DNA from: a virus
Virus record (IMG/VR): IMGVR_UViG_3300036766_000242
Location: 1 to 31,096 of that record
Strand: one strand, 5' to 3'
Length of the DNA: 31,096 nt
A program made the position numbers and the translations under genes. Below the pieces are notes generated by a model. The model was not told the DNA's origin. It was given only the letters and a program-made list of their open reading frames with translations, and did no database searches. Within the stretch, counting starts at the first letter, position 1; every line of letters begins with the position of its first letter. Positions 15,401-23,264 of this stretch are shown one piece after another.

Positions 15401-16510
15401 TTAAGCCTCGCCGACTTCTCTGCCTTTCTGTTGCGCCGCAAAACTTGAAATCGAGGCATGCTTGTATTGAGGGTCCCCTCGGAGAATGGCCACGATCTCC
15501 TTTGCAACGGGAAATGCGCCGACGGGAGGAACTGCGTTGCCTATTTGCCTCCGCACATCTGAAATTGATCCGAAAAAGATCATATCGTCTGGGAATCCGA
15601 AAAGCCTTGCTCTTTCCCTGTTGGTCAATGGCCGTGGTTCACCCCAGTGGTATCCCCATGTGCCCCCGCCACCTGCTGCGATGATGGTGGTAGATGGCTT
15701 GTCAGGATGGAGGCGCCGGTAAACATGAGAAATCATTCCTTTAACGTATAAAGGAGAATCGGGCGGAATGGCTGAAAAATTTTTCCCTGGAGGAATCATC
15801 GAAAGGAGGCTTTTTGTTTTTTCTGCAATTTTTTGATGTTCGTTGTTGTAGGGAACCTTTGCAACTCCCTTAAGTGCTTCTTTAGCAGTTACATGAACAT
15901 TGTGTGTTTTGGGAATTTGTTTAAATTTAAAACCCAGATCATTTCTTACGCCGATAAAGAGGACTCTTTCTCGGAGCTGTGCGGCTCCATAGTCAGCAAA
16001 ATTATATAGGTCATGAGAAATTTCGTATCCCAGCTGGTGAAAATCATTAATGATTTTTTTAATGGCAGCGCCACCTGCAATCGATAAAAGGCCTTTTACA
16101 TTTTCTCCGATAAATATTTTTGGTCTATTAATCTTTACGGCCTTTACCAAATAGCTATACAGGCTCCCGCGACTGCCTTTTAATCCTGGCCTTTTCCAAA
16201 TGACCGAAAAATCCTGACAAGGGAATCCACCTAAGATAATGTCGACCTTTTTGAGCTTTTCAAATTCTATTTTCTCGACAGGGGAGTTTATTATGTGGTC
16301 GCCTAGATAATGGCTGTAGGTTTGGCATGCCAGCGGATCGATATCATTCGCCCAAGAAATTTCGCAACCTGCGTTTTTAAACGCAAGATCCAAACCCCCG
16401 CAACCTGAAAAAAGCGATCCCACTTTAGGCCGGTTTGTAATAAGGTGGTTTGGAATTTTAGGAAAAGCTAGTTCAGAAATATTGGAATATGGGCTTTGTT
16501 TCATCGTCAT
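15401..16510 (-). CDS. DNA (cytosine-5) methyltransferase
   Basis: A 369-residue protein with the full set of C5-methyltransferase motifs in normal order: motif I 'GSLFSGCGGLDLAF' (31-44), motif IV 'GGFPCQDFSV' (catalytic Cys98), motif VI 'GENVKG' (135-140), motif VIII 'QLRERVLFIGVR' (178-189) and motif X 'RQIGNAVPPVGAF' (321-333). It transfers a methyl group to C5 of cytosine in a specific DNA sequence set by the region between VIII and X. No restriction enzyme is adjacent, so it is likely an orphan that protects phage DNA. Its DNA is visibly richer in A and T than its neighbours and it has no good ribosome binding site, which suggests recent acquisition. Confidence 0.95.
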   Translation of the reverse strand: MTMKQSPYSNISELAFPKIPNHLITNRPKVGSLFSGCGGLDLAFKNAGCEISWANDIDPLACQTYSHYLGDHIINSPVEKIEFEKLKKVDIILGGFPCQDFSVIWKRPGLKGSRGSLYSYLVKAVKINRPKIFIGENVKGLLSIAGGAAIKKIINDFHQLGYEISHDLYNFADYGAAQLRERVLFIGVRNDLGFKFKQIPKTHNVHVTAKEALKGVAKVPYNNEHQKIAEKTKSLLSMIPPGKNFSAIPPDSPLYVKGMISHVYRRLHPDKPSTTIIAAGGGGTWGYHWGEPRPLTNRERARLFGFPDDMIFFGSISDVRRQIGNAVPPVGAFPVAKEIVAILRGDPQYKHASISSFAAQQKGREVGEA

Positions 16511-16931: not shown

Positions 16932-17345
16932 TTATTTTCTTAGGCCACATCTTCTGGCCAAAATTGCGCGGCATTTCATACAGCAGACAACTCTCATCCC
17001 CATTTTTAGTGAATAGCGGTATTTTCTCAATTCCCTATTGAATGTCGAATCGCAAACAAAACATTCAAGCTCTACCTTCGGGGCCGTGGACATCCCCTTA
17101 TTCCAAGCTGGGAAATAATCCCTTTTCTTTCCAAGGTTATGTTTTCGGCTATGAGTTCCACGTTCCATCACCTCAAGATTACACGCCCGATTGTCGAGTC
17201 TATTTCCGTTTATATGGTGGATAACCTCGATTGGGCTTAACTTTCTGTTAAGATATTTTTCCATGACAAGCCTGTGTTCAAGCATGCCCCAGCCATTCCT
17301 GAAATAAACCATCCGGTATCCTTTGTTTGTGACATATTTTCTCAT
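16932..17345 (-). CDS. HNH homing-type endonuclease
   Basis: A 137-residue protein starting at the ATG at 17345, placed by an AAGGAA site. It has the layout of free-standing phage HNH homing nucleases: a 'KGYRMVYFRNG' hairpin, 'LEHRLVMEKYLNRKLSPIEV', then 'IHHINGNRLDNRACNLEVM' with the HNH-core His pair and Asn, and 'GTHSRKH'. The C-terminal 50 residues carry a Cys-x2-Cys ('CFVCDSTF') and a later 'CCMKCR', a zinc element. It sits between unrelated genes, as a mobile gene would. No intron or interrupted flanking gene is visible. Confidence 0.85.
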   Translation of the reverse strand: MRKYVTNKGYRMVYFRNGWGMLEHRLVMEKYLNRKLSPIEVIHHINGNRLDNRACNLEVMERGTHSRKHNLGKKRDYFPAWNKGMSTAPKVELECFVCDSTFNRELRKYRYSLKMGMRVVCCMKCRAILARRCGLRK

Positions 17346-17346
17346 T

Positions 17347-17424
17347 TTAAATTCCTTCGGCCTGAGTTTGGACAGGCTCTGCTGGTTTAGTGAAGCGAGG
17401 GTTGCGCGTCCCCGCCCCACCCAT
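17347..17424 (-). CDS. Possible 25-residue peptide
   Basis: A short frame ('MGGAGTRNPRFTKPAEPVQT' then five residues) fills the gap between the amidotransferase and HNH genes. It has no clear ribosome binding site, and the stop runs into the HNH start region. Weak support; it may be only leader sequence. Confidence 0.25.
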   Translation of the reverse strand: MGGAGTRNPRFTKPAEPVQTQAEGI

Positions 17425-17432
17425 CACCGTTT

Positions 17433-18734
17433 TCACTCATTTGGAGGAGAGACAACGGCCAAATCTCTTTCCTCTTGAACTGAGGCCGTGTCCCTGTTCT
17501 TAAACGCAAACTTCTCGCACTCACACGAAACACCCTTCTCCATGACGTAGCACGCGTCCCAGCTATCATGGTATTCGGCTTCGTGGCCGCAAGTGCATAA
17601 GGCCAGATTGTCTGGAACCATCCTTGAGCCTTCCTCCAAAAGACCGGCGACACTCGATCCCTCCACTTCTGCAACCGGCAAGAGCTTCATGCAGGGGCAA
17701 TTTGTTATCCGACACGACATATTGTTACCGGGGAAGTGCGCGACTTCTGAATGGCCGCACTCACACAAGATAAGAGGTTCGGGGATTGGCTCCTCCCACA
17801 ACTCCATCTTGTTTGCTCTCGACTTTATTTCCTCCACCCGCTTGTCAACGAAGTCGTTGCAGGTGCAAAGAGTCGCGCCCGAATCTGTGTTCGGAACCTC
17901 AACTTTCTCCATGCACATCCACCCGCCCGTCGTGGTATTGACGGATTCATGCTTCTCCCCTATGTGGCCGCAAATACAAACCGCGTTATCAGAAGGCTTC
18001 GGAGACTTCTTGGCGTTACCAATCGCTCGGTTAACCCACTCGTACTCGCCTTTGTATCCGCCGTTGTAATAGCCGTAGAATTCGCTCTCGCTGGCATATG
18101 TGTATGCGAAGGATTTGTTTTCCGGCACCTGAACGGCCTTGATTATCTCGCCGCCGCCGATGGTGTAGATAAGCCCTTCGGTCAGAGACTTGATTTTCTC
18201 GCAACCGATTTCTTTCAGGAAGTCATCTTCGCTGGCGATATACATACCGCCCTTCTTCATGCCGCGAAACAACGGGTTTCCCTTCCGGTAGGCAAAGAGC
18301 TTGTTCCCATCAATCCAAACGAGGGCGATTGAGCCGACGTACTTGGAAAAGTCCTTTGCTTTTATGCCGTGGATAAGCGACTGGCTGTCAACGGCATACT
18401 TGCCGAACTCTTTGTAATTGTTGATGATACCGTTGTGCGCGAAGGCAATCCCCTCCATCAGAAACGGATGGGCGTTGGCTTGCGTGACCGCGCCCGTGGT
18501 TGCCGTCCGTGTGTGGCCGATAAGGGTACCCGATTGAGCCGCCCGATTGACGAACTCATGGAATTCTATCTCGAAGGCTGTTATCGGGTGCTTCGTCGTT
18601 TTCTCAACGCGGATTCCGCCGAGTTGGTACCACGCCAATCCTGCCGACTCTGTTCCTCGCTTGGCGTTAAGGCACCCCAGCGCGGCAATCATGCACGGGT
18701 TAAGCTTCCCGCTCCCTGCAAGTATGCCGCACAT
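17433..18734 (-). CDS. Class II glutamine amidotransferase with three C-terminal zinc motifs
   Basis: A 433-residue protein. Residues 1-230 form an Ntn-hydrolase glutaminase domain like GlmS or PurF: Cys2 as nucleophile after Met removal, 'GHTRTATTG' (73-81), 'NAHP' (87-90) and 'AHNGIINN' (99-106). This domain frees ammonia from glutamine. No sugar-isomerase or phosphoribosyl domain follows. Instead residues 253-410 hold three copies of a Cys-x-Cys-Gly-His...His...Cys...Cys-x-Cys unit (starting at Cys253, Cys324 and Cys380), likely small zinc-binding domains. It is coupled by TAATG to the amidoligase, so it probably supplies the nitrogen for amide formation while the zinc repeats bind a partner or target. 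I do not know of this exact fusion. Confidence 0.85.
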   Translation of the reverse strand: MCGILAGSGKLNPCMIAALGCLNAKRGTESAGLAWYQLGGIRVEKTTKHPITAFEIEFHEFVNRAAQSGTLIGHTRTATTGAVTQANAHPFLMEGIAFAHNGIINNYKEFGKYAVDSQSLIHGIKAKDFSKYVGSIALVWIDGNKLFAYRKGNPLFRGMKKGGMYIASEDDFLKEIGCEKIKSLTEGLIYTIGGGEIIKAVQVPENKSFAYTYASESEFYGYYNGGYKGEYEWVNRAIGNAKKSPKPSDNAVCICGHIGEKHESVNTTTGGWMCMEKVEVPNTDSGATLCTCNDFVDKRVEEIKSRANKMELWEEPIPEPLILCECGHSEVAHFPGNNMSCRITNCPCMKLLPVAEVEGSSVAGLLEEGSRMVPDNLALCTCGHEAEYHDSWDACYVMEKGVSCECEKFAFKNRDTASVQEERDLAVVSPPNE

Positions 18735-19840
18735 TAGAACGGCCCCCCGCCTGTAGTTGAACCGGAAGTAACCGGCTCATCCGAGGCGTCCGTTTCAGAA
18801 TGTTCCTCGTTACCCTCCGTAACTCTAACGAGATTCGGGTTGCCTAGGTTAATACCCTCTCCCTGCTCTCTCGCTTCCTCCATTTCTCTTTGCGCCCGCC
18901 GCCGATTGCGTTCTTCTCTGTGGTCTTGGCACTCGAAACAATGGCAACCACGAACCGGTATCCGTGGACTTCTATAACCGCCATAAACCGGATCGGGTTG
19001 CTGAACGTGGTATCGGTCGCGGAACGCCTGATTTTCTTCGTCGGTCATCAGAATTCTTCTTTCCGTGTCGTTGACGGCGGAAAGCCCGCCCGATATATCA
19101 GCCGGTCTAAGCAGGCCGACTTTCCGGGCAAGCTCAACGGCCAGCTGGACGCCTTCTCCGCCAGAATTGAGACGAACCCTTTTGACTTTTCTGAACGTCC
19201 TTCTTATCTCGCTGATTTCAACGTCCATTCTTGACGGGTCTTCAATCAAGAAGTACGCCCCCCTGCTCATTTCCATACACGCCGCTATCCACGCCATGAG
19301 GATAGAGAACCTTTTTGTGTCTCCCATGAGCCGGAACTCAACGGTGCGTATGCCGTTCGGCCTGAATATTTCAACAACGTTCAGCCATTGGTAACGGAGC
19401 GCGTTATCGCTTTTACAGTGATAGAATTTTGTTTTCATCGTCCCATCTTGAACGACGACTCCATCCCATTTTCTGCAATAACTATTTCCTCGGCGCGAGA
19501 TTGGAGCAGCGTCAAACGCTTCGTCCTCGACGTGGCGGGCCAAGGCGACAAGCCATGCGGCCCATAGGCGGGATTTTTCTTGATTGTTTCTTAAGGCAAG
19601 GTGGACATGAAAGCCGCAGGAATTGTCAACGGTCACGTCCCTAAAGGAAACAAGGCGGCGGAGAAGCATCAAACCCTTCTCCGGGTCGTCGACGACTCTT
19701 TCGCAGAGCCGGTACTCTAGTCCGTCCCCGTGGACGCTCCCGTCTGAACCAAGTATGATTCCTTCTGGAACATCATCGTCGCGAACCCCGCCGGTTGCCT
19801 CCAACTCCCACCCCATACTGAACTGTATATTCTCTGGCAT
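18734..19840 (-). CDS. Amidoligase, glutamine synthetase-like (COOH-NH2 ligase) family
   Basis: A 368-residue protein; the start at 19840 is chosen for its GGAGG site, although the frame continues to a GTG at 19942. Motifs of the GS-like amidoligase fold appear in order: 'GWELEATGG' (Glu12, Glu14), 'GSDGSVHGDGLEYRL' (residues 31-45), 'NSCGFHVHLAL' (Cys75-His80) and 'RTVEFRLMG' (165-173). These bind ATP, metal and substrate; the family joins a carboxylate to an amine. The C-terminal third is a separate, disordered-looking region with 'CHCFEC' (299-304) and a charged helix. The next gene encodes a glutamine amidotransferase with a TAATG junction, and Iyer and colleagues described such pairs. 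The substrate, perhaps cell-wall peptide or a protein, is unknown. Confidence 0.8.
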   Translation of the reverse strand: MPENIQFSMGWELEATGGVRDDDVPEGIILGSDGSVHGDGLEYRLCERVVDDPEKGLMLLRRLVSFRDVTVDNSCGFHVHLALRNNQEKSRLWAAWLVALARHVEDEAFDAAPISRRGNSYCRKWDGVVVQDGTMKTKFYHCKSDNALRYQWLNVVEIFRPNGIRTVEFRLMGDTKRFSILMAWIAACMEMSRGAYFLIEDPSRMDVEISEIRRTFRKVKRVRLNSGGEGVQLAVELARKVGLLRPADISGGLSAVNDTERRILMTDEENQAFRDRYHVQQPDPVYGGYRSPRIPVRGCHCFECQDHREERNRRRAQREMEEAREQGEGINLGNPNLVRVTEGNEEHSETDASDEPVTSGSTTGGGPF

Positions 19841-19934: not shown

Positions 19935-20264
19935 TCAGGCACCTATTAACTTAGGCTGTTCTTTTGCGGATAACGCCCTCCCGCGTATTTCCGGGTTCTG
20001 CAAATTCCATCGCCCATTTATAACGACGTACTTCGCGGAAACGACTTGAATCTTTCCGTGACGGCCCTTGTAAAGAGCGCACACCTTGTCTTTCTCAAGC
20101 AACTTGCAGACTGTCTTTATGGTCGAGCGTTTCAGCTTGACCCCGCTTCCTTTCTTTCTTTTCAGGCGTTCGATGACATCCTGTATACGGCTTTCGTCAA
20201 TGCCCGCGTCCGCCATCCGGCCTACCAGTTTGGCGATTGTCACTTTTGTTCTTACGTCACCCAT
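19935..20264 (-). CDS. Hypothetical basic protein
   Basis: This 109-residue protein has a GGAGG site before its ATG. The N-terminal half is helical and rich in Lys and Arg ('IQDVIERLKRKKGSGVKLKR'); the layout with 'STIKTVCKLLEKDKVCALYK' looks like a small winged-helix-type domain, but no family is recognised. It lies between the XRE regulator and the amidoligase in one operon and might be a second DNA-binding protein. Confidence 0.65.
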   Translation of the reverse strand: MGDVRTKVTIAKLVGRMADAGIDESRIQDVIERLKRKKGSGVKLKRSTIKTVCKLLEKDKVCALYKGRHGKIQVVSAKYVVINGRWNLQNPEIRGRALSAKEQPKLIGA

Positions 20265-20908: not shown

Positions 20909-22318
20909 TCACGAAATTGCTCCTTTTGGGATTTCCCAACCGGCGCGGCGATGTTCTCTTTTCAGGCCAAAAAACTTATAAACGACGTTTCCGTTGGCGT
21001 CTTTTTCCACCGGCCTGATTGCGCCTTGGAAATAAGTTAGCGGGCCGCGCTCGGCTGTGGGGTTGTTCCACGTCTCTTTGAGAATATCCGCCCATGTCAA
21101 ATGACGCCGGATATAAGCAATCTTTGGCCCCGCGCCAAAATTAATCATTTTGGAAGCCAGATAATCGTAAGCCCACGCGGGGACAATATCTTCAAGATGG
21201 ATTAGCTTACCTGTTCGCATGGATTCGACAAGCCGGTTCGTTGCTTGATTTTCCTGCCAATTTCCAAAGACCGGATCGGCTGGATTTATTCCGCAACAAC
21301 ACCCGAAGTCGTTAAGCTGTTTCCAAACCGGATCGCTCACGCCAACGTCCAGGCCGTTCTTTTTGGCGTAGTCGTGAATGTCGTGCATTATTTCTTCCGT
21401 CCATAAATAGCTGGGGCGTGTGCAGGCTTGAAGCTTGCCAAAACTCGAATAGATTTTTTTGAAGTCGCGGCCAGCAATTCGGTTCATCAGTTCCCACTTC
21501 CACTTTTTTTCTTTAGGCAGGGTCATCGGATAAAAACCAACCTCGTAACTGATGGCCTTGGCCCCCGCCTTCGCCGCCCGATCAATCAAGATTCGGTGTC
21601 CGCCGCCCTTATCCGTTATCCCCTGCATAATGGGCCGCATCCTCAAACTCGTTTTGACGCCATGAGAAGAAAGCCATTCCATCGCCTGAAAACGCTGGCT
21701 TGTGGAAGGCGCGAATCTTTCCACCTGCTTCGCCACCGCGTCATCGTTCGTGATAATGCTGAACGCCACCCAAAACAAATGAGGAGCTTGCATGATGGCC
21801 TTCTGGTAATCAGGGAGAAGAAAAATTCCGCTCTTTGTGGACATCCTTACCGGCTGGTTGTATTTGACGGCCAGATTAATAAACTTGAGGAGCCAGCCCT
21901 GATTCTGCTCAATGCTGTCCCCCGCGTCACAAAGCCCGCCGAGTTGAACCGGACAAGGATAACCGCTCGCGTTGCGCTTGTCGTACTTGAGGCTCTTTCG
22001 GAAGTGTTCGCCGTCTTTGCCGCCTTCCCCCGCAAATATCCGCTCAAGTTTGTTAAGGGAAGTTTGGCCGACGGTATCCTTTCCCTTAACCGCGCTATGG
22101 CCCAAAATGTTATCGCTGAAGCAATAGAGGCACTCATAAGCGCAGACCGAATGACTGTCAATCGTAACGGGAAGCGCGCAATCGAAACCATCGGCAGTAT
22201 TGCGTATCCCGTTATAGTCCCGCAACGGGGCGCGGACTTCTTTGCACTTTTGGGAATTGGGGCAATTCAGACTGAACGCCCGACATTCTCGGCAGACCTG
22301 CGCTTCCTCAAATCTCAT
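20909..22318 (-). CDS. Radical SAM enzyme (spore photoproduct lyase-like branch)
   Basis: This 469-residue protein has the radical SAM cluster motif 'CAYECLYCF' (Cys59-x3-Cys63-x2-Cys66), which binds the 4Fe-4S cluster that cleaves S-adenosylmethionine. The following 'GLCDAGDSIEQNQG' and 'PVRMSTKSG' (about 128-164) fit the strand pattern of the SPL/Rv2578c-like group. Four N-terminal cysteines (9, 12, 19, 25) and a late 'CCCG' (340-342) with Cys299 could bind another cluster or zinc. The last 100 residues are an extra domain. The substrate is unknown; a modified base in DNA or a tRNA is possible, given the ParB-like partner whose gene overlaps this one by 4 bases. Phage Gp37/Gp68 proteins (DUF5131) are an alternative relative, not excluded. 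The enzyme is the last gene before a regulatory gap. Confidence 0.85.
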   Translation of the reverse strand: MRFEEAQVCRECRAFSLNCPNSQKCKEVRAPLRDYNGIRNTADGFDCALPVTIDSHSVCAYECLYCFSDNILGHSAVKGKDTVGQTSLNKLERIFAGEGGKDGEHFRKSLKYDKRNASGYPCPVQLGGLCDAGDSIEQNQGWLLKFINLAVKYNQPVRMSTKSGIFLLPDYQKAIMQAPHLFWVAFSIITNDDAVAKQVERFAPSTSQRFQAMEWLSSHGVKTSLRMRPIMQGITDKGGGHRILIDRAAKAGAKAISYEVGFYPMTLPKEKKWKWELMNRIAGRDFKKIYSSFGKLQACTRPSYLWTEEIMHDIHDYAKKNGLDVGVSDPVWKQLNDFGCCCGINPADPVFGNWQENQATNRLVESMRTGKLIHLEDIVPAWAYDYLASKMINFGAGPKIAYIRRHLTWADILKETWNNPTAERGPLTYFQGAIRPVEKDANGNVVYKFFGLKREHRRAGWEIPKGAIS

Positions 22319-22911
22319 AGGATTTTTTTCTTGAAGTATTCGGGGTCGATTTCGTGCGGGGTTTTTAAGACGCCCAGCTGCATCAACTCGTCGGAAAAGG
22401 TTTTGAATGTGGCTTCATCATTGTAAAACTCCACATAAAAATAAAACTCATTCCCAAGAGATTTTTTCTTTTCGCTGTCCTCAAAGACGGGCCTCATCAT
22501 CGAGGCCAAATTGATGTTGAGGTTCTTTAAATCAATTTCGTCGAAACCGGTCAGGGTAACGTCCATGCCATTGTCCGACAAATCCTTGAAAACAGCTTCC
22601 AGCTTTGCGCTGTCCCATTCGCCCGAAATTTTGTTCAGGGCGATGTTGAGAGCCTTCTCTTTGTTCAGGTCTGGAATGTTCACCACGGAAACGTCAACCT
22701 CCCTTACGCCCTTTTCCCTTAGAACGGCAAGACGTTGATGGCCCCCGACAAGATTGCCCGTCGCCATATTCCAGACAAGCGGTTCAACCAAATCGAATTC
22801 TTCAATACTTCGTTTTATCTGCTCGTACTCAACGTCTCCGGGTTTCAGCTCTTTTCTCGGATTGTACGGAGAAGGATTTAGGTGTTCGATTGCGACCTTT
22901 CTGATTTCCAT
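22315..22911 (-). CDS. ParB/Srx-like nuclease-domain protein
   Basis: A 198-residue protein with the phage type of ParB/sulfiredoxin-like domain: 'HLNPSPYNPRKELKPGD' at the N-terminus, then 'FDLVEPLVWN' and the key loop 'NLVGGHQRLAVL' (GGHQR at 56-60), then 'ALNIALNKISGEWD'. In phages this form is often next to or fused with DNA methylases. The domain can bind or hydrolyse nucleotides; here a DNA-modification or nucleotide-handling role is more likely than plasmid partitioning. The last 60 residues are a separate region. The start at 22911 forms TAATG with the gene before it, and its end overlaps the radical SAM start by 4 bases, a sign that the two proteins act together. Confidence 0.85.
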   Translation of the reverse strand: MEIRKVAIEHLNPSPYNPRKELKPGDVEYEQIKRSIEEFDLVEPLVWNMATGNLVGGHQRLAVLREKGVREVDVSVVNIPDLNKEKALNIALNKISGEWDSAKLEAVFKDLSDNGMDVTLTGFDEIDLKNLNINLASMMRPVFEDSEKKKSLGNEFYFYVEFYNDEATFKTFSDELMQLGVLKTPHEIDPEYFKKKIL

Positions 22912-23264
22912 TACTGCTTCCACGGGTCTTTCAATGATCCCGCCTCCACAAGTTCCGCGCCCAATCCTTTAGCGACCGCTTCCTCAACGAGCTTCGCTGG
23001 AATCTCAAGGGCCACGCCAATCTTCCGGCAATTTTCCATCGCCAGAATAAAGTCATGGGCGTTCAGACCGGTTGCCTTGTCAGCCTTCAAGCCGGTTTCC
23101 ACCCTCCAAAACGGTCGACGCTCTAAAACCTTCTGTTTCGGCGTCCCGTTGATTGTCCAGTGAGCGACGGCCAGCCTTGTCAAGCCGCCTGATTTTTCAG
23201 TTTCTTCAATCGGCTCGATAACCTTGTATTCAAACGTCTTTGGTAGTTCGTATTTTTTAGCCAT
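22911..23264 (-). CDS. Hypothetical early protein
   Basis: A 117-residue protein in the early operon, with GGAGG upstream and a TAATG junction to the ParB-like gene. It contains 'VAHWTINGTPKQKVLERRPF' and 'KATGLNAHDFILAMENCRKI', then 'AKLVEEAVAKGLGAELVEAG'. The pattern suggests a mixed alpha-beta fold with a C-terminal amphipathic helix. I do not recognise the family. Direct junction with the ParB-like and radical SAM genes suggests it may work with them. Confidence 0.7.
   Translation of the reverse strand: MAKKYELPKTFEYKVIEPIEETEKSGGLTRLAVAHWTINGTPKQKVLERRPFWRVETGLKADKATGLNAHDFILAMENCRKIGVALEIPAKLVEEAVAKGLGAELVEAGSLKDPWKQ

Follow-up and report, generated by a model that had tools for sequence, protein, structure and literature searches.

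The window analysed here, a 31,096-bp linear virus record that is probably incomplete, carries an amidoligase gene and a class II glutamine amidotransferase (GAT) gene in a compact two-gene form that, judging from the sequences compared, is a distinct branch of an enzyme pair already known in phages. We put at roughly 60% the probability that the two proteins form a phage-encoded, two-component glutamine-dependent amide synthetase, in which ammonia from the GAT would be used by the amidoligase for amidation and Cys-rich tails would act in docking.

The amidoligase and GAT of the window

An earlier reading made from the sequence only had proposed an amidoligase paired with a class II glutaminase across a TAATG junction, and this description held up: both proteins scored above their Pfam cut-offs and the two genes share base 18734 (Table 1). 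The junction reads TTCTAATGTGC, with TAA and ATG overlapping by that base, and the one-base overlap suggests that translation of the two subunits is coupled. An alternative in-frame GTG start at 19942 would lengthen the amidoligase from 368 to 402 residues.

The amidoligase matched Amidoligase_2 (PF12224, E = 1.6e-6) with 28.6 bits where the cut-off is 22, which places it in the family as what is, by this score, a divergent member. Its motifs are ExE (E12, E14), DGS (33-35), G40/E42, HVH (78-80), Y150, N154 and EFR (168-170), residues that do not vary among six phage amidoligases and are kept in almost all of 38 relatives; among the latter, E12, E14, D33, S35, E42, H78, H80, N154, E168 and R170 hardly vary or do not vary at all. 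The glutamine synthetase (GS) fold has ExE, HxH and ExR as active-site motifs, and all three are present (E12/E14, H78/H80, E168/R170). Consistent with this, when the amidoligase core was modelled with AlphaFold, a Foldseek search with the model matched YbdK (E 6.3e-4, probability 1.00), glutamine synthetases aligned to the model with Z of about 10 (3.0-3.2 Å over about 175 residues), and GCS and PafA/Dop matched it as well, as expected of a GS-like fold.

The GAT matched GATase_4 (PF13230, E = 4e-10) and GATase_6 (PF13522, E = 5e-7), both above cut-off, and the four motifs listed in the sequence-only reading are all there: C2, GHTR (73-76), NAHP (87-90) and AHNG (99-102). The nucleophile and glutamine-binding residues of a class II enzyme (C2, R76, N101-G102, D116) are conserved. 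Most of residues 1-205 were modelled by AlphaFold with pLDDT >90, and the model has an Ntn-hydrolase fold, matching PurF (Z 24.5), GlmS (Z 24.4) and EgtC (Z 22.3). By sequence, the nearest solved structures are the GlmS and PurF glutaminases, GlmS being the best, with NAHP and HNG kept. While the window GAT has its fold and active-site motifs in common with the glutaminase domains of GlmS and PurF, it lacks their isomerase or phosphoribosyltransferase domain, and no Pfam domain above cut-off lies C-terminal to its glutaminase. The sequence-only reading had named active-site loss in relatives as grounds for abandoning the pair; no loss of a catalytic residue was seen in the amidoligase or the GAT, in the window or in the relatives compared.

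Table 1. Features of the amidoligase/GAT locus (positions in the 31,096-bp window)
Feature	Position	Strand	Details
Amidoligase_2 gene (GS-like COOH-NH2 ligase)	18734..19840	(-)	368 aa from ATG; Pfam, motifs, AlphaFold model
Short Cys-rich motif CHCFECQDH near amidoligase C-terminus	18920..18946	(-)	residues 299-307 of 368-aa form
Base common to amidoligase stop and GAT start (TAATG)	18734..18734	(-)	sequence
GAT gene (class II glutamine amidotransferase)	17433..18734	(-)	433 aa
GAT Ntn glutaminase domain, nucleophile Cys2	18120..18734	(-)	residues 1-205; PF13230, PF13522, model
GAT C-terminal Cys/His-rich tail	17433..18119	(-)	residues 206-433; three CxCGHxxxxH units
CxCGH unit 1	17847..17978	(-)	residues 253-296; CICGHIGEKH...C...CTC..F
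CxCGH unit 2	17679..17765	(-)	residues 324-352; CECGHSEVAH...C...CPC
CxCGH unit 3	17505..17597	(-)	residues 380-410; CTCGHEAEYH...C...CEC..F

A two-gene branch of a known phage cluster

Iyer and colleagues are said to have described, in 2009, a phage cluster made up of a COOH-NH2 ligase, Amidoligase_2, a class II GAT, an ATP-grasp enzyme and GGCT. We collected GAT relatives by scanning viral contigs with a three-sequence alignment, which gave 51 loci, and with a closer two-sequence alignment, which gave L061 (on the contig of L009), L062 and L063; scans of the viral contigs with single-protein queries returned no matches. L008 was discarded when it proved to be a GlmS of 607 aa, the best plasmid matches were likewise GlmS, and a scan of genome contigs returned partial matches only, to actinobacterial GATs. 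Among 50,697 phage records, 348 matched the GAT of L013.

An Amidoligase_2 gene lay within the fetched flank at 44 of 54 viral-contig GAT loci, often overlapping the GAT gene or 3 bases from it, in agreement with the earlier statement that such neighbours are known in phages. At 32 GAT loci both a COOH-NH2 ligase and an ATP-grasp gene were present as well, often with GGCT, as is seen in LUZ24, in crAss-like phages and in Escherichia phages. The cluster of LUZ24, phiEco32-type and crAss-like phages resembles the window in having homologous Amidoligase_2 and GAT genes in one orientation with catalytic motifs kept, and in having a GAT with no synthase domain; annotated GATs of the LUZ24 type take their name from GlmS, yet lack the length to hold its synthase part and gave no match to it in the regions compared. 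In the window no sugar or nucleotide domain comes after the glutaminase, as the sequence-only reading had noted; it had taken this as new, but the lack is usual in GATs of the LUZ24 type. What sets the window record and ten relatives apart from this cluster is that they have no COOH-NH2 ligase or ATP-grasp gene; the GAT tail of the window is also of a different type.

In the window and seven other loci, the amidoligase and GAT stand alone in the regions examined, and searches of the whole records of these eight found neither PF14395 nor ATP-grasp, with L015 as positive control. The same two families were not found in the whole records of Arthrobacter phages Ottawa and Waltz and of MW202789, while the controls L015 and L095 gave matches to both, so that the two-gene loci number 11. 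MW202789 is circular and the Ottawa and Waltz genomes were deposited as complete; the host of Ottawa is A. globiformis B-2979. The pair had been called self-contained, and indeed no other gene of the known cluster was found in the window record; as this is a linear fragment of 31 kb, the genome may have further genes of the cluster beyond its ends.

In a GAT tree from which the long-branch rows L052, L050 and L006 had been left out, the GATs of the 11 two-gene loci group together (support 91/97; 94% of bootstrap trees). An earlier tree that included these three rows gave a two-gene group that also took in L052, a locus with weak matches to COOH-NH2 ligase and ATP-grasp. The two-gene sequences cluster in the amidoligase tree too, but together with L052 and with crAss-like five-gene sequences, the latter adjoining the group of the window. 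Given the two trees, the GAT shows the two-gene form to be a real branch, and the amidoligase leaves its origin unsettled.

The closest relatives, L061 and L062 (both from IMG/VR), share the gene order of the window, with identities over the aligned part of 55-57% for the GAT and 38-42% for the amidoligase, but their GATs have short CxxC rather than CxCGH tails, and their amidoligases carry a large Cys cluster. Ottawa (gp65-66), Waltz (gp95-96) and MW202789 fall in the GAT-tree branch of the window and differ from it in other ways: Ottawa and Waltz have GGACT upstream and GATs with no Cys tail, and the amidoligase of MW202789 (L094:1814-3868) bears many Cys/His clusters in its long N-terminal half. 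The amidoligase at L012:2948-4999 has what, judged by eye, look like N-terminal pentapeptide-like repeats. GAT-like proteins starting MCAI (ACAI in the L056 open frame) were seen at L010, L011, L014 and L056 with no amidoligase in the flank examined.

Besides the amidoligase and GAT, no gene is common to the whole two-gene set in the regions fetched. GGCT/GGACT (PF06094) was not found in the window record and occurs in L095 and in three two-gene relatives, immediately upstream of the amidoligase in Waltz and Ottawa and elsewhere in the third record; it is not universal in the five-gene cluster either, as L015 was negative. Where present, these GGACT neighbours point to gamma-glutamyl chemistry.

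Cysteine-rich tails of the GAT and amidoligase

The three motifs of the glutaminase tail that had been read as zinc motifs proved to be real sequence features far beyond chance: CxCGHxxxxH occurs in the GAT exactly three times, starting at residues 253, 324 and 380, whereas two CxCGH turned up in none of 200,000 shuffles of residues 206-433, and a separate set of 200,000 tail shuffles gave one full CxCGHxxxxH in only 5 cases. Each unit has C-x-C-G-H-x4-H followed by CxC, and the three could be aligned with Troll4 gp43, LR745208 and an open reading frame of L061. From this pattern the units look zinc-finger-like, and they would most likely bind metal. The AlphaFold model stays below pLDDT 50 over almost the whole of residues 212-433, and we therefore claim no fold for the tail. 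A CDGSH iron-sulfur domain (PF09360) was rejected, the score being 20.3 bits against a cut-off of 29.5 and the CDGSH motif itself being absent. The units had no Pfam match above cut-off and matched PHROGs 6114, 24688 and 11944 weakly; a hit of unit 3 to a Vibrio phage D69 'protease' was dismissed, the annotated protein having no CxCGH motif.

The Cys/His pattern of each unit is that of an orphan phage module, CxCGHxxxxH...C...CxCxxF (e.g., mycobacteriophage Troll4 gp43), which is usually free-standing or fused to other domains, whereas in the window it forms a GAT tail. A DNA pattern scan of viral contigs found the module at 18 other loci, free-standing small proteins among them; since the pattern was restricted to one codon choice at the module start, these are a sample and not a census. 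In the sequence stretch available for each of the 18, no GAT or amidoligase was recognisable nearby. L078 has the module fused N-terminally to ASCH, and in L061 a CxCGH protein of 51 aa is encoded on its own, some 1.1 kb upstream of the amidoligase. At L074:3258-4391 the module is apparently inserted within a terminase-large-subunit-like protein, and L076:2-1606, a large open frame rich in Cys, has the CxCGH unit three times alongside several further motifs that resemble zinc ribbons.

This spread through many unrelated phage contexts, with no second case on the GATs examined, is what one would expect if the CxCGH tail were a mobile, functionally neutral addition that has no role in amidation. 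We regard that as improbable, because roughly half of the GATs examined have a paired-Cys tail of some type, in most cases close to the C-terminus, and such recurrence argues for a shared role. Specifically, when 56 GATs including that of the window were compared with shuffled tails, 31 had a paired-Cys module (shuffled mean 1.1, maximum 4) and 30 a strict CxxC...CxxC tail (shuffled mean 0.2), making zinc-like tails normal among these phage GATs. With the window excluded the count is 30 of 55, among them both closest relatives (L061 and L062), LUZ24 gp19 and the Erwinia phage Pecta GAT. The idea that zinc motifs on a glutaminase are new thus did not survive; the CxCGH tail, and likewise the triple array, is confined to the window GAT, and a CxCGH fusion to the glutaminase in other phages, which the sequence-only reading had proposed to look for, was found in none of the other 55. 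What is new, as far as these searches show, appears to be just the CxCGH type in triplicate.

The Cys modules also shift between subunits. The window has three units on the GAT and one short motif on the amidoligase, while L061 and L062 have several modules on the amidoligase, where a far larger Cys cluster occupies the region equivalent to CHCFECQDH, and one or two on the GAT.

Proposed mechanism and alternatives

As we picture the amide synthetase, the GAT would hydrolyse glutamine at Cys2 to glutamate and ammonia, as its fold and residues indicate, and the amidoligase, going by its fold and motifs, would activate a carboxylate with ATP for attack by ammonia or another amine to give an amide. 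The carboxylate would most likely be of glutamyl or peptide type, since the nearest folds are YbdK, GS, GCS and PafA/Dop and relatives have a gamma-glutamyl(amine) cyclotransferase neighbour. The Cys/His-rich tails, variable in type and carried by either subunit, would most likely bind metal and join the subunits or dock the substrate. In the two-gene branch, the pair would act with neither the COOH-NH2 ligase nor the ATP-grasp enzyme that the larger cluster has. A bolder version, which we hold only tentatively, is that of a stand-alone two-protein amide synthetase whose exchangeable metal-binding tails are adaptors that choose the macromolecular target, the triple CxCGH adaptor of the window being unique among its members.

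EgtA and EgtC act in ergothioneine synthesis, and PuuA and PuuD in putrescine use. The main rival to our reading is a make-and-break pair of this kind, in which a gamma-glutamyl amide would be made from glutamate and an amine by the amidoligase and hydrolysed later by the Ntn-fold partner, which would not act as an ammonia donor; the GS/GCS/YbdK-like ligase fold, the place of EgtC among the best GAT fold matches (Z 22.3) and GGACT neighbours in relatives, expected to act on gamma-glutamyl amines, all fit it. We nevertheless think it unlikely, as structural alignments place the GAT nearer to GlmS and PurF, whose glutaminases produce ammonia (25-28% identity), than to EgtC (15-16%), it retains NAHP, and the sequence search listed GlmS and PurF and not EgtC.

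The surroundings of the pair bear on its target, for which the sequence-only reading had offered the cell wall, a host protein or the virion as candidates. It is placed between regulatory/DNA-metabolism genes and the packaging module, and adjoins no lysis or envelope genes. An HNH endonuclease gene (16932-17420, minus strand) directly follows the window GAT; Rhizobium phage RHph_I3_11 has an HNH gene immediately after its GAT, and UFV-P2 has one between its amidoligase and GAT. Farther from the pair, before the terminase genes, comes a C5-cytosine DNA methylase (15401-16510, minus strand; PF00145, 1.6e-70). On the other side is a divergent radical SAM-like protein (20909-22318, minus strand), with a Radical_SAM match at E 0.0018, below cut-off, and a match to phrog_13321 (unknown function) at 4e-12; a gene for a ParB-like protein (22315-22923) adjoins it.

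Given these flanking genes, modification of a nucleotide or of DNA together with the radical SAM-like protein or the cytosine methylase could be imagined. This strikes us as very improbable: the radical SAM-like protein, which we rejected as a partner of the pair, had no match in seven two-gene relatives, and across the branch only the amidoligase and GAT are common in the regions fetched. An altered host cell wall or surface that blocks superinfection is a rival on target only, compatible with the chemistry we favour. A passage in PMC10580990 credits Iyer et al. 2009 with this prediction for phiEco32, as a suggestion, and the passage in PMC11318856 that repeats it words the role as fact, also citing the Iyer et al. 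2009 analysis. We found no experiment on such a target in the literature searched and, with no lysis or envelope genes adjoining the pair, consider it doubtful, less so than DNA modification.

Significance

In the literature searched we found no functional test of a phage amidoligase/GAT pair. Phage GATs of the window kind are widespread, and for these the two-gene branch is a more useful finding than the zinc tail, as it includes testable isolates: with two proteins only and isolated Arthrobacter phages among its members, both the chemistry and the target of the predicted amide synthetase are directly testable. Within it, the tails that change in type and in subunit mark the likely docking part.
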